A DNA stretch of 64,000 nucleotides from an uncultured Paracoccaceae bacterium (GTDB lineage Bacteria > Pseudomonadota > Alphaproteobacteria > Rhodobacterales > Rhodobacteraceae): assembly GCA_947489325.1 (NCBI GenBank), contig CANLDA010000001.1, positions 434,001 through 498,000 on the forward strand, written 5' to 3'. The notes under the pieces were generated by a model, which saw only the letters and a list, made by a program, of their open reading frames with translations, was not told the DNA's origin and did not search any database. Positions within the stretch are counted from its first letter, which is position 1; each line of letters begins with the position of its first letter. Both the position numbers and the translations under genes were made by a program. Positions 33,217-49,741 of this stretch are shown here, in pieces.

Positions 33217-33708
33217 ATGAGCCGACTAGATATTTTCATCAATCGCATGGTGTCCCAACGCGCCTGTATTGATTTTGCACTCACCGAAACCGCACAGATG
33301 AATGGACCAGTTTTCGAGTTGGGCTTGGGGAATGGCCGCACCTATGATCACCTGCGCGACGGCGCAGGAGAGCAAACGGTTTTTGTTTTTGAACGCGCGG
33401 TTGCCTCTAATCCCGCCTCCACCCCGCCCGATGACATGATCATTCTGGGTGACGTCATGGAAACTCTGCCTCAGGCGCTTGAACGATTTGGGCCAGCAGC
33501 CCGTTTTATTCACGCCGATCTTGGCGGTCACAACCTTGAAAAAAACGATAAATTCGCGCGGGCAATTTCACCCTTAGTGGAGCCGCTACTGGCAGTTGGC
33601 GGCATTATGGTATCCAGCGACCAAATGTATTTTGATCATCTACGCGAAATGACTTTGCCGGAAGGTGCGGTTGATGGGCGGTGTTTTGTATATCAACGCA
33701 TGGCCTGA
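33217..33708 (+). CDS. Small class I SAM-dependent methyltransferase-like protein (Methyltransf_17 type)
   Basis: A 163-residue protein with SAM-binding motif I as VFELGLGNGRTYDHLR near residues 32-47 and an acidic FERAV after the second strand. It is a paralogue of the gene at 16758-17237, sharing start, motif and overall length. GAGG precedes the ATG. It is the first plus-strand gene ahead of the lipid operon, with a 2H-phosphoesterase-like gene between. The acceptor molecule is unknown. Confidence 0.7.
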   Translation: MSRLDIFINRMVSQRACIDFALTETAQMNGPVFELGLGNGRTYDHLRDGAGEQTVFVFERAVASNPASTPPDDMIILGDVMETLPQALERFGPAARFIHADLGGHNLEKNDKFARAISPLVEPLLAVGGIMVSSDQMYFDHLREMTLPEGAVDGRCFVYQRMA

Positions 33709-33752
33709 TAAGACGCGTGGGCACATCTGATTTTCCACGTGGCAAGGCTCTG

Positions 33753-34439
33753 ATGCAGTTCAAACGATATGCCATATATTACACGGCACCACCTGGCCCA
33801 TTGGCAGATTGGGGTGCACGTTGGTTGGGTTGGGATGTTGCCACAGGGTGCTCACGCGCGCATTTTGATTTACCCGATTTATCCGTTTCATCTGAAGACC
33901 TGACAAAAGATCCACGTCGATATGGGTTTCATGCGACCCTGAAGTCGCCATTTAGGCTGGCACCCGATACCACTGTGGATGACCTGCAATCCGCTTTGAT
34001 GGATTTTTGCGCCAGCCATCGGGCCGCTTCTACAGACGGATTAGAACTCTCGCGGCTTGGCCGCTTTCTGGCACTTACACCTGTTGGGGACATCACGGCG
34101 ATCAGATCACTTGCGGCAACTATCGTACGTGAATTTGACATATTTCGCGCAGCGCCCACCGATGCCGAACTGACCAAACGCCTTTCGGCAAACCTGCGTC
34201 CCAGCCAGCGCAGCAATGTCATGGCATGGGGATATCCATTCGTCATGGATGACTTTCGGTTTCACATAACCCTGACCTCTCGCCTGCCCAAAGCACAGAT
34301 CGCCGCAGTTCAGACCGCGTTACAAGCGATGCTTGAACCTGTCTTGCCTACCGCGTTTTCCATTGATGCCCTTACTTTGGTGGGTGAAGATGGAGACGGA
34401 AATTTTCATGTAATCAGCCGCAACTCGCTGTCTTGTTGA
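33753..34439 (+). CDS. DUF1045 protein, 2H-phosphoesterase-like
   Basis: From the ATG at 33753 (AAGG upstream) the product is 228 residues, beginning MQFKRYAIYYTAPPGPLADW as in DUF1045 proteins. Two His-x-Thr motifs of the 2H phosphoesterase superfamily are visible: GFHATLKSPF near residue 50 and FHITLTS near 170. DUF1045 genes usually stand in phosphonate (phn) operons, where a role in phosphoribosyl metabolism is assumed. No phosphonate gene is near; it is followed instead by the inositol and sphingoid lipid genes, so a cyclic or lipid phosphodiester substrate is worth considering. Confidence 0.75.
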   Translation: MQFKRYAIYYTAPPGPLADWGARWLGWDVATGCSRAHFDLPDLSVSSEDLTKDPRRYGFHATLKSPFRLAPDTTVDDLQSALMDFCASHRAASTDGLELSRLGRFLALTPVGDITAIRSLAATIVREFDIFRAAPTDAELTKRLSANLRPSQRSNVMAWGYPFVMDDFRFHITLTSRLPKAQIAAVQTALQAMLEPVLPTAFSIDALTLVGEDGDGNFHVISRNSLSC

Positions 34440-34550
34440 TACCTCACTCATAGACATCCCCGCCAAATTATGATGGGTTCACGCAAGAGGTTTGGCCATA
34501 ACGGCTCTCATTTTTTAGAAAAACCGGAAAACATAGGGTGGAGCGCATTT

Positions 34551-35774
34551 ATGAAGCAATCGCAGTCAAGTTTTGCTGCATTCGCTGAACGCAGATTCCG
34601 CCTAAGCGGGAAGGCCCTGATCGAAAACGGCCATCCTTACTTTGTGCCCACTGATGCGCTTGAGAACGCGTCAGATACTTGGCCCGACGGATACCTAAGC
34701 ATCGCGCATTATGACTATCTTGGGCTGGCGCATGACCCACGGGTCACACAGGCCGCCAAGGATGCGATTGATAATCATGGCACCGGGGTCGGCGCATCGC
34801 GACTGGTGGGAGGCGAACGGCTTGCCCACCGCGCGCTAGAGGATGCACTCGCCGAATTCCTGAATGTTGGGGCCGTATTGTCCATGATCTCGGGGTATCT
34901 GACCAACGTGTCTTTGATCAGTCATGTCATGGGGCCACGGGATCTTGTACTTGCGGACGAGCTTGCACATAATTCTATCGTTCTTGGCGGAAAATGTGGG
35001 AAGTTTGATTACAAAACCTTCCAACACAATGACCTGAACGACCTGGAACGCATCATGGATGACGTCGCAGATCAATATCACCGTGTCCTGATCGTGACCG
35101 AAGGTCTGTTTTCCATGGATGGGGACGTTACCGATCTGCCGCGTATTCTTGACATCAAAGAAAAACACGATGCCTGGCTTTTGCTGGACGAGGCGCATTC
35201 CTATGGTGTTTTGGGCACCACTGGCCGGGGGCTGTGCGAGCATTACGGCATTGATCCCGCACGGATTGAATTGACCGTGGGCACCTTATCCAAAAGCTTC
35301 TCTTCTTCGGGGGGCTTTATTTGTGCCTCGGCTGAGGTCATCGAATGGCTGCGCTTTACCTTATCCGGCTTTGTCTATTCCGTCGGATTGTCGCCCGCGA
35401 CCGTAGCGTCAGCGCACGCGGCGCTTGATGTGTTGCGAAATGAACCTGAACGCGTCACCCGCCTTCGATCCAATTCTCTCAAATTCCTAACCAAAGCGCG
35501 CGATGCCGGGCTGAACACCGGTTCAGCCATTGGAGAGGCCGTCATCCCAGTCTTGTTCAAAACGCCCGAAGATTGTGTCTTTGTGGCCGAACATCTGATG
35601 AATATGGGCATTTATGCCCCGCCAATCATCCACGTTGGTGTTCCCAAGGATTTGCCTCGCATCCGGTTCTTTCTGTCTGCCTTGCACACTGAGAATGACA
35701 TTGATCGTGTTATCTCTGAAATCCTTACTGCGCTGTCACACCTTCAATCCCAGCACCGAATTGGCGCCGAATGA
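34551..35774 (+). CDS. spt: Alpha-oxoamine synthase, probable serine palmitoyltransferase
   Basis: A PLP enzyme of 407 residues that would condense an amino acid with an acyl thioester, here most likely serine with a long-chain acyl group to give 3-ketosphinganine. Typical family elements are GTGVGASRLVGGE near 82, His 140 in DELAHNS (stacks on PLP), DEAHSYG at 213-219 and the Schiff-base Lys 248 in TLSKSFSSSGG. I chose 34551 because GGAG lies seven bases upstream; 34470 would add 27 atypical residues. Family members include KBL, BioF and ALA synthase; the choice of serine palmitoyltransferase leans on the adjacent ketosphinganine-reductase-like gene. It starts a ten-gene unit. Confidence 0.8.
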   Translation: MKQSQSSFAAFAERRFRLSGKALIENGHPYFVPTDALENASDTWPDGYLSIAHYDYLGLAHDPRVTQAAKDAIDNHGTGVGASRLVGGERLAHRALEDALAEFLNVGAVLSMISGYLTNVSLISHVMGPRDLVLADELAHNSIVLGGKCGKFDYKTFQHNDLNDLERIMDDVADQYHRVLIVTEGLFSMDGDVTDLPRILDIKEKHDAWLLLDEAHSYGVLGTTGRGLCEHYGIDPARIELTVGTLSKSFSSSGGFICASAEVIEWLRFTLSGFVYSVGLSPATVASAHAALDVLRNEPERVTRLRSNSLKFLTKARDAGLNTGSAIGEAVIPVLFKTPEDCVFVAEHLMNMGIYAPPIIHVGVPKDLPRIRFFLSALHTENDIDRVISEILTALSHLQSQHRIGAE

Positions 35775-36385
35775 TGCGCTTTTGGGTCATTGGTTGTTTT
35801 TATTCCGCATTGTTTGTGTTTGGGCTTATATCTCAGGGCGCGTTTGCAGGGGCCGATTTACAATTTGATACATACAAAACCACCGCTACCATCCCGCGTG
35901 CCAGACAGGAATTTCCAGTTCCCAAGGACCCGGATCAGGTGTTTTACATTCAGCGGTCGTTGAATTCAAACACCGTGGTCTATGCAGCGCAGTTTGATCG
36001 CAATGGCGTATTGAAAACGGCTCATTCGATACGTCCCTATTGGCGGCGCTTTGATACGGATGCACGGATCAAGCCGCTTAAGTGGGTGGAAAACGCCTTT
36101 GCCTATGGTGTTGAATCCAAACGTGACCCTACAACCAACCATCACAACGTCACTTTCAAGGCTTTATCTCAGATCTCGGCTCAACTCCGCCAGAGCGGAC
36201 CTAATCAAGCTGCTCTTTGGACACGGCTTGAAGGTCGCGACCTACGCCTTGAATATGCATTTCTAGATCTTGATGAGACAGGCCTCGTTCCCAAGGTCGC
36301 ACGCCTTCGGCTATACGGCACAGACCCGGATTCGGGTTTGGTCTATACCTATGTTTTTTCCGTTTCCGGTGGAGAGTTCCAATAA
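35771..36385 (+). CDS. DUF4833-like secreted protein
   Basis: A 204-residue protein with a signal peptide (hydrophobic WVIGCFYSALFVFGLISQ, cut near AFAGA). The mature part has FYIQRSLNSNTVVYAAQF near 58, then a YWRRFD and an AYGVESK segment, which matches my memory of DUF4833. Function is not known. It overlaps the serine palmitoyltransferase-like gene as ATGA and abuts the inositol-phosphate synthase gene with no gap, so it is made together with lipid-synthesis enzymes although it should sit in the periplasm. A role in handling or modifying the exported lipid is inference. Confidence 0.6.
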   Translation: MMRFWVIGCFYSALFVFGLISQGAFAGADLQFDTYKTTATIPRARQEFPVPKDPDQVFYIQRSLNSNTVVYAAQFDRNGVLKTAHSIRPYWRRFDTDARIKPLKWVENAFAYGVESKRDPTTNHHNVTFKALSQISAQLRQSGPNQAALWTRLEGRDLRLEYAFLDLDETGLVPKVARLRLYGTDPDSGLVYTYVFSVSGGEFQ

Positions 36386-37492
36386 ATGACCGCATCTAAA
36401 ATACGCACAGCCATTATTGGCGTCGGCAATTGCGCGTCTTCGCTGATCCAAGGCGTTTCCTATTGCCGTGAACTGGGGGACGAGGCCGTAGGCGTTAGTT
36501 TCCCCGATCTTGCCGGTTACCGCCCCGCTGATATTGAGTTGGTGGCTGGTTTTGACGTGGACGCCCGCAAGGTAGGTCGCACGTTAGGAGAGGCCGCATT
36601 GGCCGAACCAAATTGCACCGAAGTGTTTTTTACCAATCTGTCCGACCAATCCGCACGGGTTTTACGCGGGCCTGATTTGGATGGCGTTTCGGCCCATATG
36701 TTAAACCAACCACAGGATCGCTCCTTTCGTCTGTCTCAGGAGCCTGCCTTGAACAAACAGGGGGTGGTGGATGCATTGCGCGCTGTAAAAGCCGAAGTCA
36801 TGGTTATCTTTTTGCCTGTTGGGTCACAAAGAGCCGTCGAATTTTATGCCGAATGCGCTCTAGAGGCAGGCTGTGCCGTGGTGAATGGTATACCGGTTTT
36901 TATCGCCTCAAACGCAGCGTGGGCCGCACGGTTCAAGGCTGCAGGTGTTCCAATTCTGGGGGATGATTTTAAGGCGCAATTGGGGGCCACCATCGTTCAT
37001 CGCACCCTGACCAATCTGGCCGAAATGCGCGGCGTGAAAATCGACCGCACCTATCAGTTGAATGTGGGCGGCAACACCGACTTTCTGAACATGTCGGATA
37101 TGGATCGCCTTGCAACCAAGCGTGAATCCAAAACCGAAGCCGTGCAATCCGCCATGAATGAACGTCTGGAAACAGAAGATATCCGCATAGGACCCTCAGA
37201 CTATGTGCCATGGCTAAATGACCGCAAGGTCGCCTATATCCGCCTAGAGGGTCGCCTGTTTGGTGGCGCACGCACAAATATCGAATTACGCTTGGACGTC
37301 GAAGACAGCCCCAACGCCGCTGCAGAGGCCATGGCCGGAATTCGTTGCGCCCGTATTGCGCTGGATCGTGGGCTGGCCGGACCGATCAACGCGGCCTCTT
37401 CGTTTTTGTTCAAACACCCGCCGATACAGATCGAAGACACCGATGCCCATGACGCCTTGCTGAAATTTGCCCAAGGCACCGAGGATCTGTGA
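36386..37492 (+). CDS. ino1: Inositol-3-phosphate synthase
   Basis: The enzyme turns glucose 6-phosphate into 1L-myo-inositol 1-phosphate (inositol 3-phosphate) with NAD. The 368-residue length and motifs fit the short actinobacterial/archaeal type: IIGVGNCASSLIQG near 10-23 (NAD loop), GDDFKAQLGATIVHRTL near 192, QLNVGGNTDFLNM near 224 and KRESKTEAVQ near 246 with the catalytic Lys residues. Inositol phosphate made in bacteria usually goes into inositol lipids or osmolytes; the CDP-alcohol phosphotransferase at the end of the same unit favours lipids. The stop overlaps the next start (TGATG). Confidence 0.93.
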   Translation: MTASKIRTAIIGVGNCASSLIQGVSYCRELGDEAVGVSFPDLAGYRPADIELVAGFDVDARKVGRTLGEAALAEPNCTEVFFTNLSDQSARVLRGPDLDGVSAHMLNQPQDRSFRLSQEPALNKQGVVDALRAVKAEVMVIFLPVGSQRAVEFYAECALEAGCAVVNGIPVFIASNAAWAARFKAAGVPILGDDFKAQLGATIVHRTLTNLAEMRGVKIDRTYQLNVGGNTDFLNMSDMDRLATKRESKTEAVQSAMNERLETEDIRIGPSDYVPWLNDRKVAYIRLEGRLFGGARTNIELRLDVEDSPNAAAEAMAGIRCARIALDRGLAGPINAASSFLFKHPPIQIEDTDAHDALLKFAQGTEDL

Positions 37493-38298
37493 TGCAACGC
37501 GCGGCCTTTGTCACCGGTGGCTCTAGTGGCATAGGTCTTGAGGTGGCGCGTCTCTTTGCCCGACAAGGGCGGGATGTGGCGTTGTTTGCGCGCGACCTTG
37601 AAAAATTGGAAGCCGCACGCGCGTCTCTATTGGTTTCTGCACCGAACGTCCGGGTGACATGCCATCCTGTTAACGTTGTGGACACCGATGCGCTGACCAC
37701 GGCACTGCAACAGGCAATAGACCTGTTGGGCATCCCAGACCGTGCCGTCGCCAGCGCAGGTATCGCCATTCCCGGGCTGTTTGCTGAACAACCTCTGTCG
37801 CTCCATCATGATCACATGCAGACCAATTATTTTGGCAGCCTTACTTTTGTACATGCGCTTACTGAACAAATGGCAACCGCTGGCGGGGGGCGAATTGGAT
37901 TGGTCGCATCGGGTGCCGCGTTCTTTGGCATTCACGGCTATTCGGTCTATGCCCCCTCTAAATTCGCCCTACGCGGATTGGCAGAGGTTTTGCGCATAGA
38001 ACTTGCCCCTGCAAAAATCGGTGTGACCCTGTGCTATCCACCAGACACTGATACGCCTCAACTTGCATCCGAGAAGAAAACCAAACCCGCCGCTACGCGA
38101 AAGATCACCAAAGGGGGCGGATTGTGGCAGCCACAGGATGTTGCCCGTATTCTGGTCGCCGCCATGGACAAGAATAAATTCATTGCCGCACCGGGATTAC
38201 AGATGAAAGCACTTAATCTCTTTGGCAGCCTTGCGGCTCCGGCATTGCGGATTTGGCAAGGCCATATCTTGCGAAAATCTAAGGACGACACCTCGTGA
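37492..38298 (+). CDS. Short-chain dehydrogenase, 3-ketodihydrosphingosine reductase-like
   Basis: A 268-residue SDR: cofactor loop TGGSSGIG at about 8-15, catalytic Tyr 153 and Lys 157 in YSVYAPSK. After the active site it has YPPDTDTP at 182-189 followed by a Lys/Glu-rich stretch ending KTKP, a block I know from eukaryotic KDSR/Tsc10, which reduce 3-ketosphinganine to sphinganine with NADPH. The C-terminus is hydrophobic (LNLFGSLAAPALRIW), as for a membrane-attached enzyme. It directly follows ino1 (TGATG overlap) and shares a unit with the serine palmitoyltransferase-like gene, fitting the second step of sphingoid-base synthesis. Confidence 0.78.
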   Translation: MQRAAFVTGGSSGIGLEVARLFARQGRDVALFARDLEKLEAARASLLVSAPNVRVTCHPVNVVDTDALTTALQQAIDLLGIPDRAVASAGIAIPGLFAEQPLSLHHDHMQTNYFGSLTFVHALTEQMATAGGGRIGLVASGAAFFGIHGYSVYAPSKFALRGLAEVLRIELAPAKIGVTLCYPPDTDTPQLASEKKTKPAATRKITKGGGLWQPQDVARILVAAMDKNKFIAAPGLQMKALNLFGSLAAPALRIWQGHILRKSKDDTS

Positions 38299-39170
38299 TG
38301 CCAACGTCTGCCTCCTTGTCGATCTTTGCAGCCGCTTTGCTTCTTTTGGGATATGGCGTTGTTGTTTGCCTGTTGCTTTTTCCATCCACCCGCAAGGCAG
38401 GTCGGGACATCGTACCGGCATTGCTGTCAGCAACCCTAATCGCCATCGTGATTTTCGGCAGCTTTCTGATGGGCGGTGTGGTGTTGAAAGTCGCTCTTTT
38501 GGGATTGGCAGCACGCATTGGGTTTGAGGTTTGTTCTGTCTCTATTCCAGCGCAAAACCCATGGATTTTGAGTATTGGCCTAACCATGATCACCGCCACC
38601 TTACAATGGTGGGACCATCCGATGATAGGCATCGCGTTATGTGGTCTTTGGCTGATTGCCCTTGCCCGCGCAGTGCTAACACCGGGCACTCATGCAATCG
38701 CTCATCTTCTGATCTTTCCGGTCTTGCCCTTTTTACTATTTGCGATCAACGCAACCCACCCCGCAAACGCAGCGCTGTTTCTTGGGTGTTATATTCTGGT
38801 GGAAAGCTTTGACAGTTATGCGCTTTTGGCGGGGAAACTTTTTGGCCGCACGAAGGCCTTTCCCGTTCTCTCCCCGCGCAAAACCATCGAAGGGTTGCTT
38901 GGCGGCGCCGTGATGTTGCTCCTTACCGCGACTATTGCCGCCCTGATCCTTGGCTTGCCGATGGTTCAGACATTGGCCGTTACTGCGCTTGCCGGAATAC
39001 TGACTATTGCAGGCGATCTTGCAGCATCGCGTATAAAACGGCAGGCGGGTGTAAAGGACTTTCCAATCTTGATGAAACATCAGGGCGGTGTTCTGGATTC
39101 TTTGGACAGCTGGATTGCGGCAGGAGCGGGCCTTGGTCTCGTTCTGGTCATGCAGAGCACATTCTTTTAG
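38298..39170 (+). CDS. CdsA-like CDP-lipid synthase (cytidylyltransferase) with altered signature
   Basis: A 290-residue membrane protein with about eight helices. The C-terminal part carries the CdsA-type signature SRIKRQAGVKDF near 235, but where usual enzymes read P-G-H-G-G and D-R-x-D it reads K-H-Q-G-G and D-S-L-D. CdsA makes CDP-diacylglycerol from phosphatidate and CTP; this may be a paralogue with another lipid phosphate as substrate. It overlaps the reductase gene by one base and is nine bases before the LptF-like gene. A CDP-lipid donor is just what the phosphatidyltransferase at the end of this unit needs. Confidence 0.78.
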   Translation: MPTSASLSIFAAALLLLGYGVVVCLLLFPSTRKAGRDIVPALLSATLIAIVIFGSFLMGGVVLKVALLGLAARIGFEVCSVSIPAQNPWILSIGLTMITATLQWWDHPMIGIALCGLWLIALARAVLTPGTHAIAHLLIFPVLPFLLFAINATHPANAALFLGCYILVESFDSYALLAGKLFGRTKAFPVLSPRKTIEGLLGGAVMLLLTATIAALILGLPMVQTLAVTALAGILTIAGDLAASRIKRQAGVKDFPILMKHQGGVLDSLDSWIAAGAGLGLVLVMQSTFF

Positions 39171-39179
39171 GGTCACATC

Positions 39180-40295
39180 ATGCGTCTTTTCGGCCCTGTC
39201 ACCCGCGTCTTGCTTATGCCGACCTTGGTCCGCCTTTTGGGGTTGCTGGCCTTAGTCGAGGCTGTGTTTCTTGCCGAGAGCTTTCAGGGCCTGCTTGAAG
39301 TCACCCTTCGCTATGATGGCAGCCTGTGGGATGTGTTTCATCTGCTGGGGTATCGCGCGCCGGAGATTCTTGATCTTGCACTTGCGCTTGGCATTCTGGT
39401 GGCGGTGTATTTCACGGTATCTGATGCGCGCAATCGCGGAGAGCTGATCATCCTTGCCACAGCCACCGTTCCGTGGCGCCATGTCATAGGGTTTTGCCTC
39501 AAGCTCGGAGCCGTGGGCGCGATCATCAGTCTTATCGTCACCGCGTATCTGTTGCCATTGGCACGTTACCACGAACGCATCACCCTGGAACACCTGCGCA
39601 ATGATCACGTAACCGAACAAATCCTTGCAACAGGTCCGCGCCAAATCACGCAAACATTCGATGGCACGACCTTTATCGCCACCCCATCAGTCACAACAGA
39701 CAAAGAACGCGGACAATTGTTTGTCTTTAGCGCCCGCCCTAATGGATCTTGGCGTGCAGGCGTTTCGCAGGATTGGGACATTATTGCCCCTCAATCAGGT
39801 GAAATCTATAGCACAATTCTGAAGGACTTGCGCGCGTATGATCGGCCCACAGGAACCGGCAGCACAAAACATATCAGGGCAATCAACACCAACAGTGCGA
39901 CCATTGATTTTCACATGCGGGATGTGGCTCCTCCCCCGGATCACAGTCTGCGCAACAATGAACGCCCCATCCTTTTACTGGAACAAGCCCCAGATGATCA
40001 CAAACGCATTGCACATGCGGTTGGGCGCGCCTTGTTGGCCCCGGCTGCTGCGATATTGGCACTGTGCGCCGTGGTCTCCGCAGGCGCAGGCGTAAGCCGT
40101 TTTATCTCCCTGCCGCTCGCACTTCTTGCGGTTATGATGCTGGATGTGTTGGGCCGCAGTTTTCTTGGCAACATCACAAACGTGCCGTCTCTTGCGATCT
40201 ATGCTCTTGGTGCGTTGATCTATCTGTTGGGACCCATTGGATATGTTTATTGGCGCGGCGAACGTCTAATGGTGCCGGTCAGGGGGCGCGCGTGA
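39180..40295 (+). CDS. LptF/LptG family permease (LptF-like)
   Basis: A 371-residue inner-membrane protein. Three N-terminal helices (about 12-35, 57-80, 97-125), a periplasmic domain of about 150 residues, and three C-terminal helices (from about 270) match LptF/LptG, the permease halves that lift LPS out of the inner membrane for LptB2FG. The helix-2 region LGYRAPEILDLALALGILVAVY is typical. AGGG lies before the ATG. It is coupled with an LptG-like gene. Whether the pair is the general LPS exporter or a second one for the lipid of this operon is open. Confidence 0.82.
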   Translation: MRLFGPVTRVLLMPTLVRLLGLLALVEAVFLAESFQGLLEVTLRYDGSLWDVFHLLGYRAPEILDLALALGILVAVYFTVSDARNRGELIILATATVPWRHVIGFCLKLGAVGAIISLIVTAYLLPLARYHERITLEHLRNDHVTEQILATGPRQITQTFDGTTFIATPSVTTDKERGQLFVFSARPNGSWRAGVSQDWDIIAPQSGEIYSTILKDLRAYDRPTGTGSTKHIRAINTNSATIDFHMRDVAPPPDHSLRNNERPILLLEQAPDDHKRIAHAVGRALLAPAAAILALCAVVSAGAGVSRFISLPLALLAVMMLDVLGRSFLGNITNVPSLAIYALGALIYLLGPIGYVYWRGERLMVPVRGRA

Positions 40296-41398
40296 CATCC
40301 TCTGCACTGTTTGGCATCGCTGTACGTGGCGTTTTCTGGCAACACATGCGCAGCATCGGGTTCGTCATGTTTGTGCTGTTGGTCGTCGCCGTTTCCATAG
40401 ATTTGACCGAGAATCTTGACTCGCTTGGGGACAAAGCCCGCGAGACCGACAAACCCCTCGCACATATTTTGCTTCCCTATCTGGGGTATCGCACGGTTGA
40501 TATCGTCACCCGCCTGTTGCCGATGGCCTGCCTTGCTGGGGCATTTTTTGCGGAACTGATGCGACGGCAACGTTTGGAAGATGTGATTTATGCAGCAGCA
40601 GGAACATCCCCTGCACTGACCCTTTGGGCGTTGGTGTTGGTTGGTATCCTAACCGGAGGGATCCAAGCCACGCTTGAAGCCAAAATTCGCCCAGAGGCTG
40701 TGTTTCAACAAGTTGATCTTGGCGTCGGAAAATATGCACGCTGGTGGCATCCGCGTGAAACTGGATATCGCTGGTTCATAGATGGGGATAGGGCCCTTCG
40801 CGCGCGCGTTCTGGTGGGGCCTTCCCCGGAACTGAGGGATGCTACGCTTTTTGTTGGGATCATCCAACCCAACCTTGAAACATTGATCACCTCCCCCCGG
40901 GTTTCGCCCGGCAAGACACCCGGCACGTGGCAGTTTCACACAGCAGAGGTTTGGCAGCGCGGCATAGATGATACCTTGTCATCAACCAATGAAGACAGCT
41001 TTATGCTAAGTTTTCCACTTCTGGCCGAAGATTTGGAATATTTGGGCGTCGGCGCTTTCAATCTTCCTAAAAAGGCACTCAACACTCTGCGCACCACGGC
41101 AAGGGCAGAACGCAAGGCCGACATAGACACGGCCATCATGCGCCGCTTTACCGCTTTTTTGCTGCCCGGTGTGTTTATCCTTCTGGGGGCAAGCCTTGCC
41201 CAAAGCGGATACAAAGGACGCCTATTCGCACCTGCCCGCCTAATTGCATTGGCAGCGTTGGGGTATGTTTCTGTGGTGTCTGTCAAAGTCTTTTGGACAT
41301 TAGGAGAGTTTGCAACAGTATCCCCCTTGTTGGCCTGCATATTGCCGTTGGTATGGGCCTTGGTTTTAACGATCTGCTTACAGGTTCGGCGGTTTTGA
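40292..41398 (+). CDS. LptF/LptG family permease (LptG-like)
   Basis: A 368-residue partner permease starting at a GTG that overlaps the previous stop (GTGA). It has the same plan: helices near 12-32, 57-80 (LLPYLGYRTVDIVTRLLPMA region) and 95-118, a periplasmic beta-jellyroll-like part (about 130-270) and helices from about 285 to the end. An in-frame opening further upstream lies inside the LptF-like gene and is not used. With its neighbour it would form the LptFG heterodimer; no LptB or LptC gene is nearby. Confidence 0.82.
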   Translation: MTSSALFGIAVRGVFWQHMRSIGFVMFVLLVVAVSIDLTENLDSLGDKARETDKPLAHILLPYLGYRTVDIVTRLLPMACLAGAFFAELMRRQRLEDVIYAAAGTSPALTLWALVLVGILTGGIQATLEAKIRPEAVFQQVDLGVGKYARWWHPRETGYRWFIDGDRALRARVLVGPSPELRDATLFVGIIQPNLETLITSPRVSPGKTPGTWQFHTAEVWQRGIDDTLSSTNEDSFMLSFPLLAEDLEYLGVGAFNLPKKALNTLRTTARAERKADIDTAIMRRFTAFLLPGVFILLGASLAQSGYKGRLFAPARLIALAALGYVSVVSVKVFWTLGEFATVSPLLACILPLVWALVLTICLQVRRF

Positions 41399-41417
41399 CA
41401 GATGCGAACATCCTGAC

Positions 41418-42536
41418 ATGAAGATAATACAGATAAGCCCTTATGTCATGTCCCGCCCCGGCGGAGTGCAGACCCATGTCAGGGATTTGTCGTCATGGCT
41501 GACCAACCAAGGCCACGAGGTGCAGATTATTGCACCGCATGGGCCGATACCGGTTTCAGATATCCGGACATTGGGGCGATATCGGAACGTCACCCTGCAT
41601 GGCACCCGTTTTGAACTCAGTATCGCATCTGCCAAGGACTTGCGCCGCGTAACGGAAGAAGTGCACGCATGGGGGGCCGAAGTTGTGCACCTTCACACCC
41701 CGTGGACACCATTGATGCCTTGGCAACTGTGGCGTCGCTTGCGCCTGCCCTCTGTTGCCACATTCCATGCAACCTTGCCCACCTCGACACGATTTGACCC
41801 TATTGATGGTTTCCTGCGCGGGGCTGCGCGGTATTTCAACAAACGTCTGGCGCATGTGGTGGTGCCCTCATTCGCCCCGCAACGCCAATGGAAGGACATG
41901 GGGATCACCCCACCCCCAGGCATTTTGCCCCCCACCATCAACCTTGCGAAATGGCGCACTGCCAGAGACACAAAAGCGCCATCAGATAAACCGTTGCATG
42001 TGGTTTACATGGGGCGACTGGAGGCCCGCAAAGGTGTCGATGTTTTGCTGGATGCATGGCCTACCATTGCCAAGGCCCTGCCTGCGTCCCAACTAACCAT
42101 CGCAGGCGATGGCGAACAGCGCGCAGGCATCGCAATACGTGCCGCGCACATGCCGGGCCACAACATTTCACTTATCCCGCCCCCGTCTGATCAAGAGGCC
42201 CCCGCATTGATCGCCAGCGCCGATTTTTTCGCCGCCCCTGCCACCCATGGTGAAAGTTTTGGGTTGGTCCTGATAGAGGCTATGGCCGCAGGCGCCCTTC
42301 CGGTTGCGGCACATAATCCCGGCTTTGCCACTGTTCTGACCGGACCGGGACAGGAATTATTGGTCCCACCAAAAGATGCACAGGCGTTAGCGCAAAAGAT
42401 CATTTCATTGGCACAGGATCGCGCGCACCTTGAAAACCTGAAACATTGGGCACAGAGCCACGCCCAGACATTTGATGTGACACAAGTTGGCCCGCACTAT
42501 GTTGATCTTTACAAATCAGCGATTGAATCAAGGTGA
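41418..42536 (+). CDS. Glycosyltransferase family 4, PimA-like
   Basis: A 372-residue GT-B enzyme. Its start MKIIQISPYVMSRPGGVQTH and the nucleotide-binding ATHGESFGLVLIEAMAAG, with Glu 279 and Glu 287 (EX7E), closely recall PimA, the mycobacterial mannosyltransferase that glycosylates phosphatidylinositol. VVYMGRLEARKGVDVLLDA near 195 is the usual hinge. Between the lipid exporter genes and a CDP-alcohol phosphotransferase, a role in adding a sugar to an inositol lipid is a fair inference. The acceptor could also be a plain glycolipid. Stop overlaps the next start (GTGA). Confidence 0.78.
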   Translation: MKIIQISPYVMSRPGGVQTHVRDLSSWLTNQGHEVQIIAPHGPIPVSDIRTLGRYRNVTLHGTRFELSIASAKDLRRVTEEVHAWGAEVVHLHTPWTPLMPWQLWRRLRLPSVATFHATLPTSTRFDPIDGFLRGAARYFNKRLAHVVVPSFAPQRQWKDMGITPPPGILPPTINLAKWRTARDTKAPSDKPLHVVYMGRLEARKGVDVLLDAWPTIAKALPASQLTIAGDGEQRAGIAIRAAHMPGHNISLIPPPSDQEAPALIASADFFAAPATHGESFGLVLIEAMAAGALPVAAHNPGFATVLTGPGQELLVPPKDAQALAQKIISLAQDRAHLENLKHWAQSHAQTFDVTQVGPHYVDLYKSAIESR

Positions 42537-44119
42537 CAGCAGGTCAATATACCCCTGCACAAAGAGGGCACATAACCGTGGCAACTGGCGATCTGGTGAT
42601 TTCGGCCGATTTCGGCACTTCGGGTGTCAAGGTCGGTGTGGTTGATGCTGATCTGAATATTCTTGCCAAAACCGTGGAAACCTATCCTCTGCATCTGGCC
42701 TCAGGTGGGATGGCAGAACAAAACCCACAAGATTGGTGGGAGGCGCTGATCCGTGCCATTCGCACATTACAACAAGACATTCCCGATTTACGCAACCGCG
42801 TGTCTGCGCTGGCTTTTTGCAGTCAGATTTGCGGGGTGATCTGTGTAGATGATAATGGCACCCCTTTGCGGCCTTGTCTCACATGGCTGGATAAACGCGC
42901 GGCAGCTCTGGGACGTTCTTTGATCGGTGGCTTTCCACAGGTGCATGGGTATCAACTTGGTAAATTGGTAAAATGGTTACGGCATGCAAATGGCGCACCT
43001 GCAAAAAACGGGATGGACCCAACCGCAAAGATCCTGTGGATCATGCAGAACGAACCCGATACTTTTGCAAAAACGCGGTGGGTTCTGGATGTCAAAGACT
43101 GGCTGGTTCATTGCGCCACAAGTACGTTCACCACCTCACCCGAAAGCGCCAATCTGACGTGGTTGATGGACACGCGCAAGGGGCGCGAGGGCTGGTCATC
43201 TACTCTGGCAAAGATGGCCGGAATTTCACTGGACCGCCTCCCCCCCATCATTCAGGGAACAGATGTGGTTGGCACATTGACCCCACGCGCAGCAACGGAT
43301 CTTGGGTTGCCTCAGGGTGTGAAGGTCATGGGCGGCACCTGTGATGTTACCGCCGCAGCCCTTGGATCAGGTGCAGTACAGGATGGAGAACTACACATTT
43401 CGGCCGCAACCAGTGCTTGGATCGCAGGTTTCTTTCCCTCTCGCCGCCTCAGCGTGCCGCATGCCTATGCAACAATCACAAGCAGTCTGAATTTTCGCCC
43501 TTTGCTGATCGCCTCACAGGAAAACGCCGGGTCTGCCTTAGACTGGGCAATGAAAATGACCGCTGGCACGGAATCCGGTGAAACAATAGCGACAGCATTT
43601 GACACGCCTGACCTTCCTCAGACGGATGACCCTTATTTTCTGCCTTGGCTGGCAGGTGAACGCGTCCCGGTTGATGATGACGCGCTGCGCGGGGGGCTTC
43701 ATGGTTTGGCCCTGCATCATGATGCAAATGCCATTCGGCGTGCCGCACTTGAAGGCGTCGCATTAAATCTGACTTGGGCATATGAAAAAGTCATCCGCGA
43801 AAAAGGCGCGCGCGCAGATGGGCCGCTGATAATGGTCGGAGGGGCTGCACAAAATCCACGATTAGTGCAAATGTTGTCGGATTGTTTAAATCGCGATATT
43901 CACGTTGGCGAGGCACAATTTGCCGGTGTACTGGGGACCGCGACGCTGGCGACACCAGCATTGGGTTGGAGCACCACACCAGAGGCTGCCGCCCAACGCC
44001 TGAAAACCCGTGTCAGTGCAAACTACCGCCCTAACCCAGAGCGTGTGGCCGCCCTGAATGCACGCAAAACGCAACTGAAAAAAATACGCAAACACATCCT
44101 GCGCAGCTATGCGAGATAA
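42533..44119 (+). CDS. FGGY-family carbohydrate kinase
   Basis: A 528-residue kinase of the xylulokinase/glycerol-kinase family. The ATP phosphate loop is ADFGTSGVKVGVVDAD near residue 24, the catalytic region contains WLDKRAA near 120, and GGTCDVTAAALGSGAV near 265 and MVGGAAQNPRLVQML near 440 mark the adenosine site. Substrate cannot be read; sugars, sugar alcohols and inositol-related polyols are all possible. The GTG at 42533 is coupled to the glycosyltransferase stop; a GTG at 42578 with AGAGGG upstream is an alternative start. Its place in a lipid operon is unusual for this family. Confidence 0.85.
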   Translation: MTAGQYTPAQRGHITVATGDLVISADFGTSGVKVGVVDADLNILAKTVETYPLHLASGGMAEQNPQDWWEALIRAIRTLQQDIPDLRNRVSALAFCSQICGVICVDDNGTPLRPCLTWLDKRAAALGRSLIGGFPQVHGYQLGKLVKWLRHANGAPAKNGMDPTAKILWIMQNEPDTFAKTRWVLDVKDWLVHCATSTFTTSPESANLTWLMDTRKGREGWSSTLAKMAGISLDRLPPIIQGTDVVGTLTPRAATDLGLPQGVKVMGGTCDVTAAALGSGAVQDGELHISAATSAWIAGFFPSRRLSVPHAYATITSSLNFRPLLIASQENAGSALDWAMKMTAGTESGETIATAFDTPDLPQTDDPYFLPWLAGERVPVDDDALRGGLHGLALHHDANAIRRAALEGVALNLTWAYEKVIREKGARADGPLIMVGGAAQNPRLVQMLSDCLNRDIHVGEAQFAGVLGTATLATPALGWSTTPEAAAQRLKTRVSANYRPNPERVAALNARKTQLKKIRKHILRSYAR

Positions 44120-44122
44120 CTG

Positions 44123-44731
44123 ATGATTGATGGCCTGATAAAAAACAAAATCGACCCTATGTGGGAAAGCCTGTCCACCCCCTTGATCAACCGCGGTTGG
44201 TCCCCCAATCAGGTGACATTCGCCGGGTTGGGCCTGATCTGCCTGTTTTCACTGCTGTATCTTTGGCATCAGATCGATTGGCTCTATGGCATCACGCTGA
44301 TCTTTGCCTTTGCTTTTGACGCACTGGACGGGGCCGTTGCGCGGCGGCGCAATATGGCAACCAAGGCAGGGGGGTATTTTGACGCCATGGTCGATCGCTA
44401 TCAGGATCTTGCTGTGCTGGCAGCGATTGCCTTTGTGCATGATCTTTGGGTGTTGGCCTTGGTGGGGTTTTCCGGAGCGATCATCACCAGCTATGCCAAG
44501 GCACGCACAGCGATTGAAATGCCCATCAGCAATGAAAACTGGCCTGATTTGTTTGAACGCTTAGAGCGTATCGTTTTCATATGCGCGATGCTTTTGCTAT
44601 CAGGATTATTGGGAACATGGGTTGTCACCTCAGGCCTTGTGATTTTTGCCGTGCTTGCCCACGGCACTGCATTACAACGATGCCGCCGCGCCACTCAGAT
44701 GTTACAGGCCGAAGATCAACGAGAGCGTTGA
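44123..44731 (+). CDS. CDP-alcohol phosphatidyltransferase, probable inositol-phosphate lipid synthase
   Basis: A 202-residue membrane enzyme with about six helices. The family motif is complete: D66-x2-D69-G-x2-A-R74-x8-G83-x3-D87-x3-D91, the two-metal site. The last Asp is followed by RYQD, like the DRYxD form seen in archaetidylinositol- and phosphatidylinositol-phosphate synthases. It would join inositol phosphate, made by the ino1 product of this unit, to a CDP-activated lipid and release CMP. Phosphatidylglycerophosphate or phosphatidylserine synthases share the motif, so the substrate is inferred from context. It is the last gene of the unit, three bases after the kinase gene. Confidence 0.85.
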   Translation: MIDGLIKNKIDPMWESLSTPLINRGWSPNQVTFAGLGLICLFSLLYLWHQIDWLYGITLIFAFAFDALDGAVARRRNMATKAGGYFDAMVDRYQDLAVLAAIAFVHDLWVLALVGFSGAIITSYAKARTAIEMPISNENWPDLFERLERIVFICAMLLLSGLLGTWVVTSGLVIFAVLAHGTALQRCRRATQMLQAEDQRER

Positions 44732-45465
44732 CGCCACATCCAGATCACCAAATCCACAACGTGCAGCCCAAGATAGACAAGAAACGTGGAAATCAGCGCG
44801 ATTTCAGTCCAGACATAAAGCTGCAAAAGCGCATAGCTCCCCTTCAGGGGGCCAACATCTTTCAACAAGAACAGACCCAGATAGATAATGGCCATCCCTA
44901 CGGGCACCCACATAAGACGTGCGCGCATCTTGTTCATTTCTGGCAGGGTAATGCCCGGCACTTGGTACGGAAGGCGACATAGATATCCCGCCGCCGTCCC
45001 AGCAGCCAACACCGAAAACCCCTGCGCAAAGAAGAACAAATAACTGCCACCCATATGCAGATCATTGTAATCTGGAAACCGATACTGACTGAGGATGATC
45101 ATTCCGACACAGGCCCCAAACTGGACCAATGCCCAAAACACAAACAACCCATTTGCCCAATGGCGTGACACCACGCCATCCTGCCAGTTGCGCCGCAAAT
45201 CGCGATAAAGGATCAAAATGATCGCGCCAACGGCCACAAACAAAACCGGGGCGCAAATCAACATCCAATTGGCGAATGGCTCTCCTATGGCAGGATCAGA
45301 TATTGCGCGGCTGATGGTGGGGGGCTGTTGAGCAACATAGTCCGGATGCCCCTGAATAAACAGATACCGCGCCTGATAGATGAGAAAATTGATCACACAC
45401 ACGACAAAGACAGTGCACATGACGGTAATCGCCACAAAACCCGTCAATCTAATCCTGCGTGCCAT
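44716..45465 (-). CDS. Six-helix membrane protein, possibly Frag1/DRAM/Sfk1-like
   Basis: A 249-residue integral membrane protein from the ATG at 45465, with helices at about 10-31, 65-87, 105-127, 142-164, 182-203 and 211-242. The first loop carries PTISRAISDPAIGEPF, which recalls the loop of the Frag1/DRAM/Sfk1 family, whose eukaryotic members act in lipid handling; my recognition is weak. The gene converges with the phosphotransferase gene (16-base overlap) and follows the N-demethylase gene by about 80 bases on the same strand, so it may belong to either neighbourhood. No function assigned. Confidence 0.5.
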   Translation of the reverse strand: MARRIRLTGFVAITVMCTVFVVCVINFLIYQARYLFIQGHPDYVAQQPPTISRAISDPAIGEPFANWMLICAPVLFVAVGAIILILYRDLRRNWQDGVVSRHWANGLFVFWALVQFGACVGMIILSQYRFPDYNDLHMGGSYLFFFAQGFSVLAAGTAAGYLCRLPYQVPGITLPEMNKMRARLMWVPVGMAIIYLGLFLLKDVGPLKGSYALLQLYVWTEIALISTFLVYLGLHVVDLVIWMWRQRSR

Positions 45466-45548
45466 TCCGTGTCCTGCTCGTCTATACCAAGGCAATCACT
45501 CAGCCCTGTTATGGAATTATTTTCCGCAAAACTCCACAGCTTCACAAA

Positions 45549-48184: not shown

Positions 48185-49741
48185 TCAGTATTCCTGATTA
48201 AGTTCGTCACTCGCAGGAATTTCAAGTTCCCGGCGCGCAATGTAATCCAACAGCGCCTCGTTCTTAGCAGGATCAAGCATCGGCTCCTGATATTCACCCA
48301 ACAGTTTCTTGGCATGCTTTAAGGCGCGTTCAGTGATTTCTACACTGCCTTCGGCAATCCATTGTTCGATCGAATTATTGTCAAACATATCTGGCATAAA
48401 GAACGCGGATTGAAAGTTTTCCTGCGTGTGCGGATGGCCAAGGTAATGCCCGCCGGGGCCAATGTCTGATACGGCAGAAATTGCTTCATCAAAGTCATCC
48501 CAATTTACGCCACTGCCCATACGATGCGCCATTGCGCATTGTTCTGCATCCACAATAAACTTGGCTACTGAACAGTGCATTCCGGCCTCATTCCAGCCTG
48601 CACTGTGCCAAATATAATTTGCACCTGCATGCATCACTGCCGACAATGTCGTTGCCGATTCATACCCGGCCTGCGCATCAAAGGTTTTTGCCCCTCCCAA
48701 TGTATTGGACGTACGCCATGGCACCCCGTAATGCCGTGCCATCTGACCAATCATGAAATTCATCATGCTGATTTCTGGCGTGCCCGCCATAGGGGCACCC
48801 GATTTCATTGATACCGACGACAGGTAATGTCCATAGATCGCAGGCGCGCCTTTGCGGATAACCTGCGTATAGGCCAGCGCGCTCAACGCCTCGGCGTTCA
48901 ACTGCGCCACAGAGGCAGCCACAGAGGCAGGAGTGTTGGCCCCACCCAAAACAAAAGGAGAGCACAACACAGGCTGATTGCGTCGGGAAAATGCCCGCAG
49001 CGCACCCAACATAGTTTCATCCCACACCAGTGGACTGTTGCCGTTACAGTTTCCGGTGGTGACAGGGTGATCCTCAAGGAAATCTTCGCCAAACAAGATG
49101 GCGCACATATCCAAAACGTCTTCGGCATTTTTGGGGCTGGTGGTCATACCCATGAAGGTTTTGTCCGAATAGCGCATGGACGAATAGGTAATGCGCAAAT
49201 GACGTTGCGAAATGGGATGATCATATGGTTCCACAATATGGTGCGCACTGGAATGCATCGCAGGCATCATATGCGCCAACTTGTGAAACATCGCGAGGTC
49301 ATCCAGCGTCGGGTTACGACGCACATCCTCAAGGTCGCGCAGGAACGGTGCACCTGTCATGGGCACAAAGATCGAATTTCGCCCCCCCAAACGCACATTC
49401 TTTTTCGGATCACGCGCATGATAGGTAAAATCGCTGGGGATGGTGGCAATCAGCTCACGTACCAACCCGCGATCCAGATAAACGGTTTCGTCCACAACTT
49501 TGGCACCAACCCGTTTCCAATCCTCGATCGCTATGGCATCGCGAAAATGCACACCCACATTTTCCAGAATATCCATGGATGCATTGTCGATCCGTTCAAC
49601 CTGCGATCCATCCATGATTTCGCACAGCGGCAAAGTGTTCTTCAGCCCGGGCAACATATCAAATTGTGGGGCACTGCGCAGCGCACGGCGGGCGGCACGG
49701 CCACCAGAACGAGAACGAGGCAAAGTGGGTGCGTCTGTCAT
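48185..49741 (-). CDS. MttB-like (trimethylamine methyltransferase family) protein, non-pyrrolysine
   Basis: A 518-residue protein of the MttB family, which moves a methyl group from a quaternary or tertiary amine to a corrinoid protein. Segments such as DASMDILENVGVHF-like near 55, MTGAPFLRD near 130 and TTSNTLGGAKTFDAQAGYES-like near 350 are family-typical. The frame is uninterrupted with no in-frame amber codon, so it is the common non-pyrrolysine form, whose members include glycine-betaine, proline-betaine and carnitine demethylases. No corrinoid protein gene is nearby. It is divergent from tetR. Confidence 0.85.
   Translation of the reverse strand: MTDAPTLPRSRSGGRAARRALRSAPQFDMLPGLKNTLPLCEIMDGSQVERIDNASMDILENVGVHFRDAIAIEDWKRVGAKVVDETVYLDRGLVRELIATIPSDFTYHARDPKKNVRLGGRNSIFVPMTGAPFLRDLEDVRRNPTLDDLAMFHKLAHMMPAMHSSAHHIVEPYDHPISQRHLRITYSSMRYSDKTFMGMTTSPKNAEDVLDMCAILFGEDFLEDHPVTTGNCNGNSPLVWDETMLGALRAFSRRNQPVLCSPFVLGGANTPASVAASVAQLNAEALSALAYTQVIRKGAPAIYGHYLSSVSMKSGAPMAGTPEISMMNFMIGQMARHYGVPWRTSNTLGGAKTFDAQAGYESATTLSAVMHAGANYIWHSAGWNEAGMHCSVAKFIVDAEQCAMAHRMGSGVNWDDFDEAISAVSDIGPGGHYLGHPHTQENFQSAFFMPDMFDNNSIEQWIAEGSVEITERALKHAKKLLGEYQEPMLDPAKNEALLDYIARRELEIPASDELNQEY

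Follow-up and report, generated by a model that had tools for sequence, protein, structure and literature searches.

Which genes do alphaproteobacteria use to make inositol sphingolipids, and how could such lipids leave the inner membrane? Glycosylated inositol sphingolipids are best known from plants and fungi (glycosylinositol phosphorylceramides, GIPCs), and in bacteria it is Bacteroidetes in which the genes behind inositol sphingolipids were worked out. Extracts of PMC9246714 describe a Novosphingobium strain with a lipid consistent with phosphoinositol dihydroceramide and no homologues of either Bacteroidetes cluster; because of this, the alphaproteobacterial genes are an open question. 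The route of sphingolipids to the outer membrane is stated as not known in extracts of PMC11324152. Both questions are raised by a ten-gene operon in the 4.0-Mb genome (G000) of an uncultured Paracoccaceae bacterium of the same family as Shimia, found in a stretch of 64,000 nucleotides (the window; contig CANLDA010000001.1, positions 434,001 to 498,000). We give about an even chance that the product of this operon is a glycosylated inositol-phosphate sphingolipid, for whose export it has an LptFG pair of its own. All substrates, the union of both moieties in one molecule and the export step are predicted from sequence relationships. The operon represents a candidate gene set for inositol sphingolipids in culturable strains, and since synthesis, glycosylation and an extra LptFG pair lie in one operon, the question of sphingolipid transport is directly testable by deletion.

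The ten genes (g3 to g12, Table 1) occupy positions 34551-44731 of the window, all on the + strand, with overlaps of 4 bases or gaps of 0-19 bases. This arrangement had been described from the sequence alone, and the frames and junctions were confirmed. The longest frame of g3 begins at 34470, while its relatives begin at the ATG at 34551. The families named earlier for all ten genes agreed with Pfam and NCBIfam, the Pfam domains being, from g3 to g12, Aminotran_1_2, DUF4833, Inos-1-P_synth, adh_short, CTP_transf_1, LptF_LptG twice, GT4, FGGY_N/C and CDP-OH_P_transf. Solved relatives agree gene by gene with the proposed pathway, namely serine palmitoyltransferase (SPT) for g3, TSC10 for g6, Ino1 for g5, phosphatidylinositol phosphate (PIP) synthase for g12, PimA for g10 and CdsA for g7.

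In this pathway, g3 would make 3-ketosphinganine from serine and an acyl thioester, and g6 would reduce it to sphinganine, which another enzyme may N-acylate. g5 would convert glucose 6-phosphate to inositol 3-phosphate, g7 would turn a phospholipid of the diacylglycerol or sphingoid type into a CDP-lipid, and g12 would join CDP-lipid and inositol phosphate. An unlinked phosphatase would then take off the extra phosphate and g10 would add a sugar to the inositol, while gm1, the convergent gene behind g12, may serve lipid remodelling. The lipid would be pulled out of the inner membrane by g8 and g9 with an LptB encoded elsewhere, the periplasmic g4 acting as a possible export accessory, and its destination would be the outer membrane.

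That the operon makes an inositol lipid is very likely. g5 is similar over its full length to the inositol-3-phosphate synthase 1gr0 (presumably Ino1 of Mycobacterium tuberculosis), in keeping with the earlier assignment, and scored below the NCBIfam mycothiol_INO1 cut-off (380.5/638). The g12 profile found PIP synthases as best PDB relatives (62.6 bits; 6h53, structures that we take to be mycobacterial). The CDP-alcohol signature of g12, DxxDGxxAR...GxxxDxxxD, is intact, with D66, D69, G70, A73, R74, G83, D87 and D91 invariant (alignment A2). According to extracts of PMC4634129, the phosphate of inositol phosphate is bound by an RxxR motif and a final arginine (R153 and R191 in R. salmoninarum). 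The g12 residues R146/R149 (RxxR) and R186 (QR) align with these PIP synthase arginines and are invariant in 11 sequences. The expectation that g12 would not group with PgsA or PssA was borne out by the NCBIfam models, all of which it matched below cut-off (archaetidylinositol phosphate synthase 121.1/180, PIPSynth 83.5/170, PgsA 22.5, PssA 19.8 bits). As predicted for a PimA-like glycosyltransferase, the only two PDB matches of g10 below 1e-12 were PimA; g11 was nearest to xylulokinases.

The gene set is conserved as a unit. In an order-level sample of 244 genomes, g3 (E<=1e-170) and g12 (E<=1e-12) occurred in the identical 10 genomes, our own included, and g12 in 4 of 101 genera; three further genomes hold only 44-47% identical genes of the alpha-oxoamine synthase (AOS) family, to which g3 belongs. 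Conservation of the gene order in related genomes had been proposed as a check. Of the 9 other g12-bearing genomes of the order, 8 have g3-g12 in collinear arrangement, which in three of the eight is interrupted by at least one additional gene after g9; the gene order is also found in Stappiaceae and Hyphomicrobiales. In the ninth relative, G087, g11-g12 and g3 lie ~62 kb apart, and the other genes of the set were not found in the intervening stretch. In a class-level sample, g12 was present in 4 of 289 genomes, two of them G000 and G001 again; G443 has a weak g12, 34% identical, yet carries an Ino1 gene ~1.6 kb off. A scan of named genome contigs with the g3 alignment gave at least 80 AOS loci, the matches listed, which overlap with the order-level sample, so the two counts are not additive. 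Genes g3-g9 were in order in 19 of the 80 loci among the matches listed, and Siculibacillus L077 has a rearranged set. The inositol-type loci listed include Shimia species (L036 being that of Shimia sagamensis DSM 29734), Pseudopelagicola, Rhodobacter metagenome-assembled genomes (MAGs), Stappia stellulata, Hongsoonwoonella zoysiae and a Mesorhizobium MAG. When ten locus genomes were examined, g12 was present in nine (one being G087 again) and missing from that of L046. It lies 1.7-3.2 kb past the first stretch in the L042-L045 genomes and G758, ~20 kb further on the same contig in the L037 genome, and in the L039 and L071 genomes it shares a different contig with g11 and Stealth.

Synthesis of a sphingoid base by the operon is likely as well. 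The best PDB relatives of g3 were SPTs (223.8 bits; presumably from Sphingobacterium), followed by KBL (188) and BioF (183). The lysine binding pyridoxal phosphate (PLP), K248, the stacking histidine H140 and the DEAH pair D213-H216 are invariant in 86/86 rows of its clade. The best solved relative of g6 was the sphingoid reductase TSC10 (8jat), with the next at 70.5 bits; on this best relative in the PDB comparison alone, the grouping of g6 with 3-ketosphinganine reductase (KDSR) held. The genome contains three AOS genes at E<=1e-5, namely g3, KBL and 5-aminolevulinate synthase (ALAS). Because the separate KBL (634 bits) and ALAS (666 bits) genes are both over cut-off, we rejected these two identities for g3, and the gene neighbourhood argues against BioF. 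Homologues of a GNAT gene near the curated SPT of genome G255 (described below) were found in 36 of the 80 AOS loci among the matches listed, with a strong desaturase homologue adjoining in 22; the one desaturase scanned (Methylocapsa palsarum) has a Lipid_DES sphingolipid delta-4 desaturase domain. Because sister loci carry these GNAT and desaturase genes, the wider AOS clade, and g3 with it, probably makes sphingoid bases.

Further evidence concerns export. g8 and g9 each have an LptF_LptG domain, with three helices, a periplasmic stretch and three helices, and both score far below the equivalog cut-offs for lipopolysaccharide export (69.8/230 and 66.4/240 bits). The pair is additional to another LptF/LptG pair, as had been proposed: PF03739 copies numbered four in 5/5 genomes whose locus includes the pair, and two in each of the relatives G002 and G003, which lack the cluster. 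Genome G255, whose sole pair adjoins its SPT, also has two. Scores were 58-106 bits for the extra pairs, as against 195-243 for the others. The DUF4833 protein g4 gave an AF2 model with a mean pLDDT of 91.8, beta-rich behind an N-terminal hydrophobic segment, and Foldseek found no PDB fold for it with E<=0.001, so that an LptC/LptA-like jellyroll was not supported. In a phylum sample, DUF4833 occurred in 3/299 genomes, each of which (G758 among them) also has this gene set; the domain went unmentioned in the open-licence literature searched. Five Rhizomicrobium-type loci (L054, L064, L065, L070 and L078) carry LptF- and/or LptG-like, DUF4833, short-chain dehydrogenase/reductase (SDR), AOS and GNAT genes and no Ino1; in L065 an ABC ATPase precedes the Lpt-like genes. 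These loci are probably another sphingolipid synthesis-and-export locus. Because DUF4833 and LptFG pair up in them without Ino1, their gene content suggests that g4 belongs with LptFG.

Several points weigh against a single glycosylated inositol sphingolipid as the product. g12 passed no NCBIfam cut-off. The CdsA signature ends in DRxD, and in g7 its arginine is replaced by S/I/V/T in all 26 rows aligned (the nearest solved relative, 4q2g, is presumably CdsA of T. maritima); because of this replacement the substrate of g7 may differ from phosphatidate. The Pfam scan, which covered the operon only, recognised neither a PIP phosphatase nor a kinase for ceramide or sphingoid bases. The set is split between places in three genomes (G087 and those of L039 and L071), the L046 genome (G799) has a 58% identical g3 and no g12, and G382 has the biosynthetic set and only two LptF_LptG genes overall. 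The ceramide-synthase-type GNAT was not found in 17/18 inositol-set genomes, our own included, by profile search. g3 itself scored below every curated SPT cut-off of NCBIfam (276.7/500, 274.7/640 and 201.3/670 bits), and the tree described below does not put its clade with SPT, the SPT, KBL and BioF groupings all being unrejected.

In a rival scheme, two lipids are made from one operon: g5, g7, g12 and g10 would yield a diacylglycerol-based glycosylated phosphatidylinositol similar to the phosphatidylinositol mannosides (PIM), g3 and g6 would serve a separate sphingoid lipid, and LptFG would export one or both. The resemblance of g12 to PIP synthases, which use CDP-diacylglycerol, and of g10 to PimA, which acts on phosphatidylinositol, speaks for it, as do the want of a kinase in the operon to supply g7 with a phosphosphingoid substrate and the g3 of G799 that stands without g12. 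According to extracts of PMC9246714, the route of Bacteroides to its inositol sphingolipid passes through phosphatidylinositol with a diacylglycerol lipid (PI-DAG). However, the genes are interlocked in a single operon, and none of the 244 genomes, at the thresholds applied, showed g3 or g12 without the other. We consider this scheme unlikely.

If g3 is not an SPT and uses another amino acid or acyl donor, the inositol glycolipid produced would have some other amino alcohol or ketone as its backbone. In a tree of 92 rows, g3 fell in a clade of 86 that included none of the six references, and 85 of these 86 rows have an HNS motif where the six references have HAS. The distant members of the clade in L092 and L098 stand beside open frames of ~2,500 codons. 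The clade was kept in a tree of 18 rows (support 100/98), where without constraint it lay beside ALAS (support 50/22); joining it to the two SPT references gave a p-AU of 0.175, to KBL 0.125 and to BioF 0.184. Not only the SPT cut-offs remained unreached: g3 was over no NCBIfam cut-off for SPT, KBL, BioF or ALAS, while the genome's own ALAS and KBL, the SPT of G255 and BioF of E. coli passed as controls. The nearest structures of g3 and g6 (SPT and TSC10) and the GNAT and desaturase genes of the listed loci speak against a non-SPT role, which we hold to be decidedly unlikely. The earlier assignment of g3 as an SPT agrees with its best solved relatives, the separate KBL and ALAS genes and the sister loci, does not reach the curated SPT cut-offs, and is neither confirmed nor rejected by the trees.

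For the inositol sphingolipid, the N-acylation step was followed up through the ceramide synthase type of GNAT. The GNAT gene of G255 (L114:3206-4354) comes fourth past the curated SPT, behind LptF/LptG. Extracts of PMC11324152 place CC_1154, needed for dihydroceramide, after LptF2/G2 in Caulobacter. From its position and a weak Pfam GNAT match we infer that the L114 gene is a ceramide synthase; the Epimerase-family gene adjoining the SPT of G255 would be CerR, and a 98-codon gene the acyl carrier protein (ACP). No GNAT gene was found in the 20 inositol-type loci among the matches listed, all 36 GNAT loci lying outside these 20; L046 and L052 combine Ino1, AOS and GNAT genes. The profile search covered 20 genomes, 18 with a full or partial inositol set (G382 and the split G087 counted) and the positive controls G803 and G804. 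Its lone positive among the 18, some of which are MAGs and possibly incomplete, was G071, whose sequence was in the profile. A search with a single sequence likewise gave no match in G000 and was positive in G255. Because both searches were negative and the positive controls worked, we rejected the canonical ceramide route for our genome. It had been suggested that the missing N-acyltransferase may lie elsewhere, and for the known GNAT type, which has no homologue in the genome, this was not borne out. Either another enzyme N-acylates the base, or the operon makes something other than a normal ceramide.

The convergent gm1 product is a six-helix membrane protein, 41% identical to its L020 orthologue. 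It has itself no Pfam match, and 12/14 aligned homologues match PF10277 (Frag1/DRAM/Sfk1; a family that we take to include PGAP2) at E<=0.01. The orthologues of L020, L025, L016 and L133 exceed the cut-off of 30.3 (46.7, 44.8, 34.7 and 34.0 bits), and those of L077, L014 and L134 fall below it. Structure searches gave no PDB or viral match at E<=0.001 and the PDB sequence search no notable match, so the link to PGAP2 comes from the Pfam matches of the orthologues only. The N-terminal part of yeast Cwh43 corresponds to PGAP2, and Cwh43 is required for swapping the diacylglycerol of glycosylphosphatidylinositol (GPI) anchors for ceramide (extracts of PMC7125958 and PMC10216265). A protein of the PGAP2 kind with inositol-lipid and sphingoid genes as neighbours is no more than a hint of lipid remodelling. 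A GIPC-like pathway unlike every known one would take this further: the new SPT clade would work with a new N-acyltransferase or give an un-acylated sphingoid product, gm1 would exchange or re-acylate the lipid part in the manner of Cwh43, and LptFG with DUF4833 would form a dedicated export route. Taken together, these features are improbable.

The window carries a shorter form of the locus. In the fullest form, g3-g9 are followed by a nucleotidyltransferase gene (opposite strand), a second CDP-alcohol phosphotransferase, g10, a fatty-acid desaturase in some, Stealth (opposite strand), g11 and g12. Most relatives then add a gene of the Frag1-like kind and one for a PvdE-like ABC exporter, neither of which was found within ~8-10 kb in Stappia. 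The nucleotidyltransferase and second phosphotransferase genes stand on opposite strands within the operon at L016:11307-12822, L020:10187-11690 and L021:10276-11753. We rejected this second phosphotransferase as an inositol-phosphate enzyme because both arginines are absent. In another reading, the FGGY kinase, Stealth, the nucleotidyltransferase and the second phosphotransferase form the main pathway, to a lipid-anchored surface glycopolymer or phosphopolyol, and the window form is reduced. This would explain why relatives hold these genes within the locus, but it is very improbable, given that nucleotidyltransferase, second phosphotransferase and Stealth are all missing at the locus in the window and in five loci of the Shimia group (L014, L015, L017-L019), that the sole match in our genome to the relatives' nucleotidyltransferase is 26% identical, and that the Pfam/NCBIfam scan found no polymerase or capsule exporter in the operon. 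In G382 and L025, from a different family of the class, the biosynthetic genes are reordered, with no LptFG or DUF4833 at the locus and with ACP and ketoacyl-synthase genes nearby.

We also compared the operon with known systems. Extracts of PMC9246714 describe how Bacteroides makes PI-DAG by myo-inositol phosphate synthase (MIPS), PIP synthase and PIP phosphatase, and phosphoinositol dihydroceramide with BT_1522. The operon shares with BT_1522-BT_1526 of Bacteroides thetaiotaomicron, which also makes sphingolipids (same extracts), the Ino1-type synthase and the PIP-synthase-type CDP-alcohol phosphotransferase. In contrast to that cluster, its Pfam matches (a comparison made for the operon, not the rest of the genome) include no PgpA-family PIP phosphatase of the BT_1525 type, and SPT-like, KDSR-like, GT4, CdsA-like and LptFG genes lie inside it. 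Extracts of PMC11324152 describe a region of Caulobacter crescentus (CC_1168-CC_1152) with SPT, a CdsA-domain protein, a CDP-alcohol phosphotransferase and LptC2/F2/G2, for which transport was proposed and not studied; the enzymes and LptF2/G2 have counterparts in the operon, and, as far as this description goes, no Ino1 is mentioned. The operon differs in lacking AcpR, AasR, an Epimerase-type CerR, CerS and ceramide kinase (by the Pfam scan of the operon; the rest of the genome was not searched for the Epimerase-type reductase or ACP), the reductase being KDSR-like here. The putative alternative cluster of Prevotella and B. vulgatus has an NTP transferase, a CDP-alcohol phosphotransferase and a HAD hydrolase (extracts of PMC9246714). 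In relatives of our locus, Ino1 is likewise accompanied by genes for an NTP transferase and a second CDP-alcohol phosphotransferase, whereas the window locus is without both, and no HAD hydrolase was seen among the genes scanned. The mycobacterial PI/PIM pathway (Ino1, PgsA1/PIP synthase, PimA) supplies the nearest solved relatives of g5, g12 and g10; to our knowledge it includes no sphingoid genes and no Lpt export. By its gene families, the operon thus resembles the Bacteroides and Caulobacter clusters combined, plus PimA-like glycosylation, and is a member of neither. The sequence-only reading had known of no described system of this kind in Rhodobacterales. None was found for that order among the top-ranked results of the open-licence literature; the word inositol does not occur in extracts of PMC8319176 on Roseobacter lipids, and polar lipids are inferred from genes in extracts of PMC5770400 on Roseobacter taxonomy. 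Precedents that it had not named are the second LptC/F/G copies beside the sphingolipid genes of Caulobacter and the phosphoinositol dihydroceramide of Bacteroides.

Table 1. Genes of the operon and the convergent gene gm1, with positions in the window and the bases between neighbours
Gene	Predicted product	Position	Strand	Basis	Junction with next gene
g3	SPT-like PLP acyltransferase of the AOS family, in a subclade of its own (HNS motif)	34551..35774	+	best solved relatives SPT	35774/35771, overlap 4
g4	DUF4833 protein, N-terminal signal/anchor segment, beta-rich fold	35771..36385	+	PF16117 90.2 bits	36385/36386, gap 0
g5	Ino1, myo-inositol-3-phosphate synthase	36386..37492	+	1gr0 343.5 bits, E 1.4e-101	37492/37489, overlap 4
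g6	SDR, 3-ketosphinganine-reductase-like	37489..38298	+	TSC10 (8jat) 93.1 bits	38298/38295, overlap 4
g7	diverged CdsA-like CTP transferase	38295..39170	+	4q2g (phosphatidate cytidylyltransferase) 50.2 bits	39170/39180, gap 9
g8	LptF-like permease, additional copy	39180..40295	+	LptF_LptG domain	40295/40292, overlap 4
g9	LptG-like permease, additional copy	40292..41398	+	LptF_LptG domain	41398/41418, gap 19
g10	GT4 glycosyltransferase, PimA-like	41418..42536	+	PimA 126 bits	42536/42533, overlap 4
g11	FGGY carbohydrate kinase, XylB-like	42533..44119	+	profile and PDB matches	44119/44123, gap 3
g12	CDP-alcohol phosphotransferase, PIP/archaetidylinositol-phosphate synthase type	44123..44731	+	signature and inositol-phosphate arginines	
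gm1	convergent six-helix membrane protein, Frag1/PGAP2-like orthologues	44716..45495	-	orthologue Pfam matches	

The boundaries of the locus had been set at 33217-44731. Within this span g3-g12 stood as a conserved unit, while the two leading genes (33217-34439; Methyltransf_17, then DUF1045) are not part of the conserved set, and gm1, which lies outside the span and whose end overlaps that of g12 by 16 bases, belongs to the set in most relatives. The Methyltransf_17 gene was near the gene set in 2/9 relatives and in 2 of the 80 AOS loci among the matches listed. The DUF1045 gene, 2H phosphoesterase-like (33681-34439), lies just 5' of the operon and was there in 0/9 relatives. Composition gave no sign of a foreign origin (GC 54.1% vs 53.6% for the whole window). 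A scan of the window gave 5 promoter-like sites (9.2 expected) and 17 terminator-like sites (13.9 expected), which were not used, and tRNA and Rfam scans of the window gave no matches.

Other loci of the AOS family showed further arrangements. AOS, ceramide-synthase-like GNAT and delta-4 desaturase-like genes stand in a row at L055:9998-13567 and in L047-L051, L056-L062 and L067, and the same row was seen in L069, L072, L073, L079-L082 and L093 (Beijerinckiaceae, Methylocystaceae and related); these are candidate genes for bacterial sphingosine-type ceramides. At L092:2208-11170 (Roseibium) and L098:2355-12061 (Rhizobium), the long open frame is followed by a wide-clade AOS gene with an SDR gene adjacent, possibly for a sphingoid-like natural product fed by a polyketide synthase (PKS). 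In G758 (L120:12166-14450), genes for a thiamine diphosphate (ThDP)-dependent enzyme and a class V aminotransferase, presumably a pair of the kind used in phosphonate metabolism, precede the AOS gene. Beyond gm1, the next gene in the window encodes an FMN oxidoreductase. A gene similar to the MttB family of trimethylamine methyltransferases (48185-49741) lies near an FMN oxidoreductase gene.

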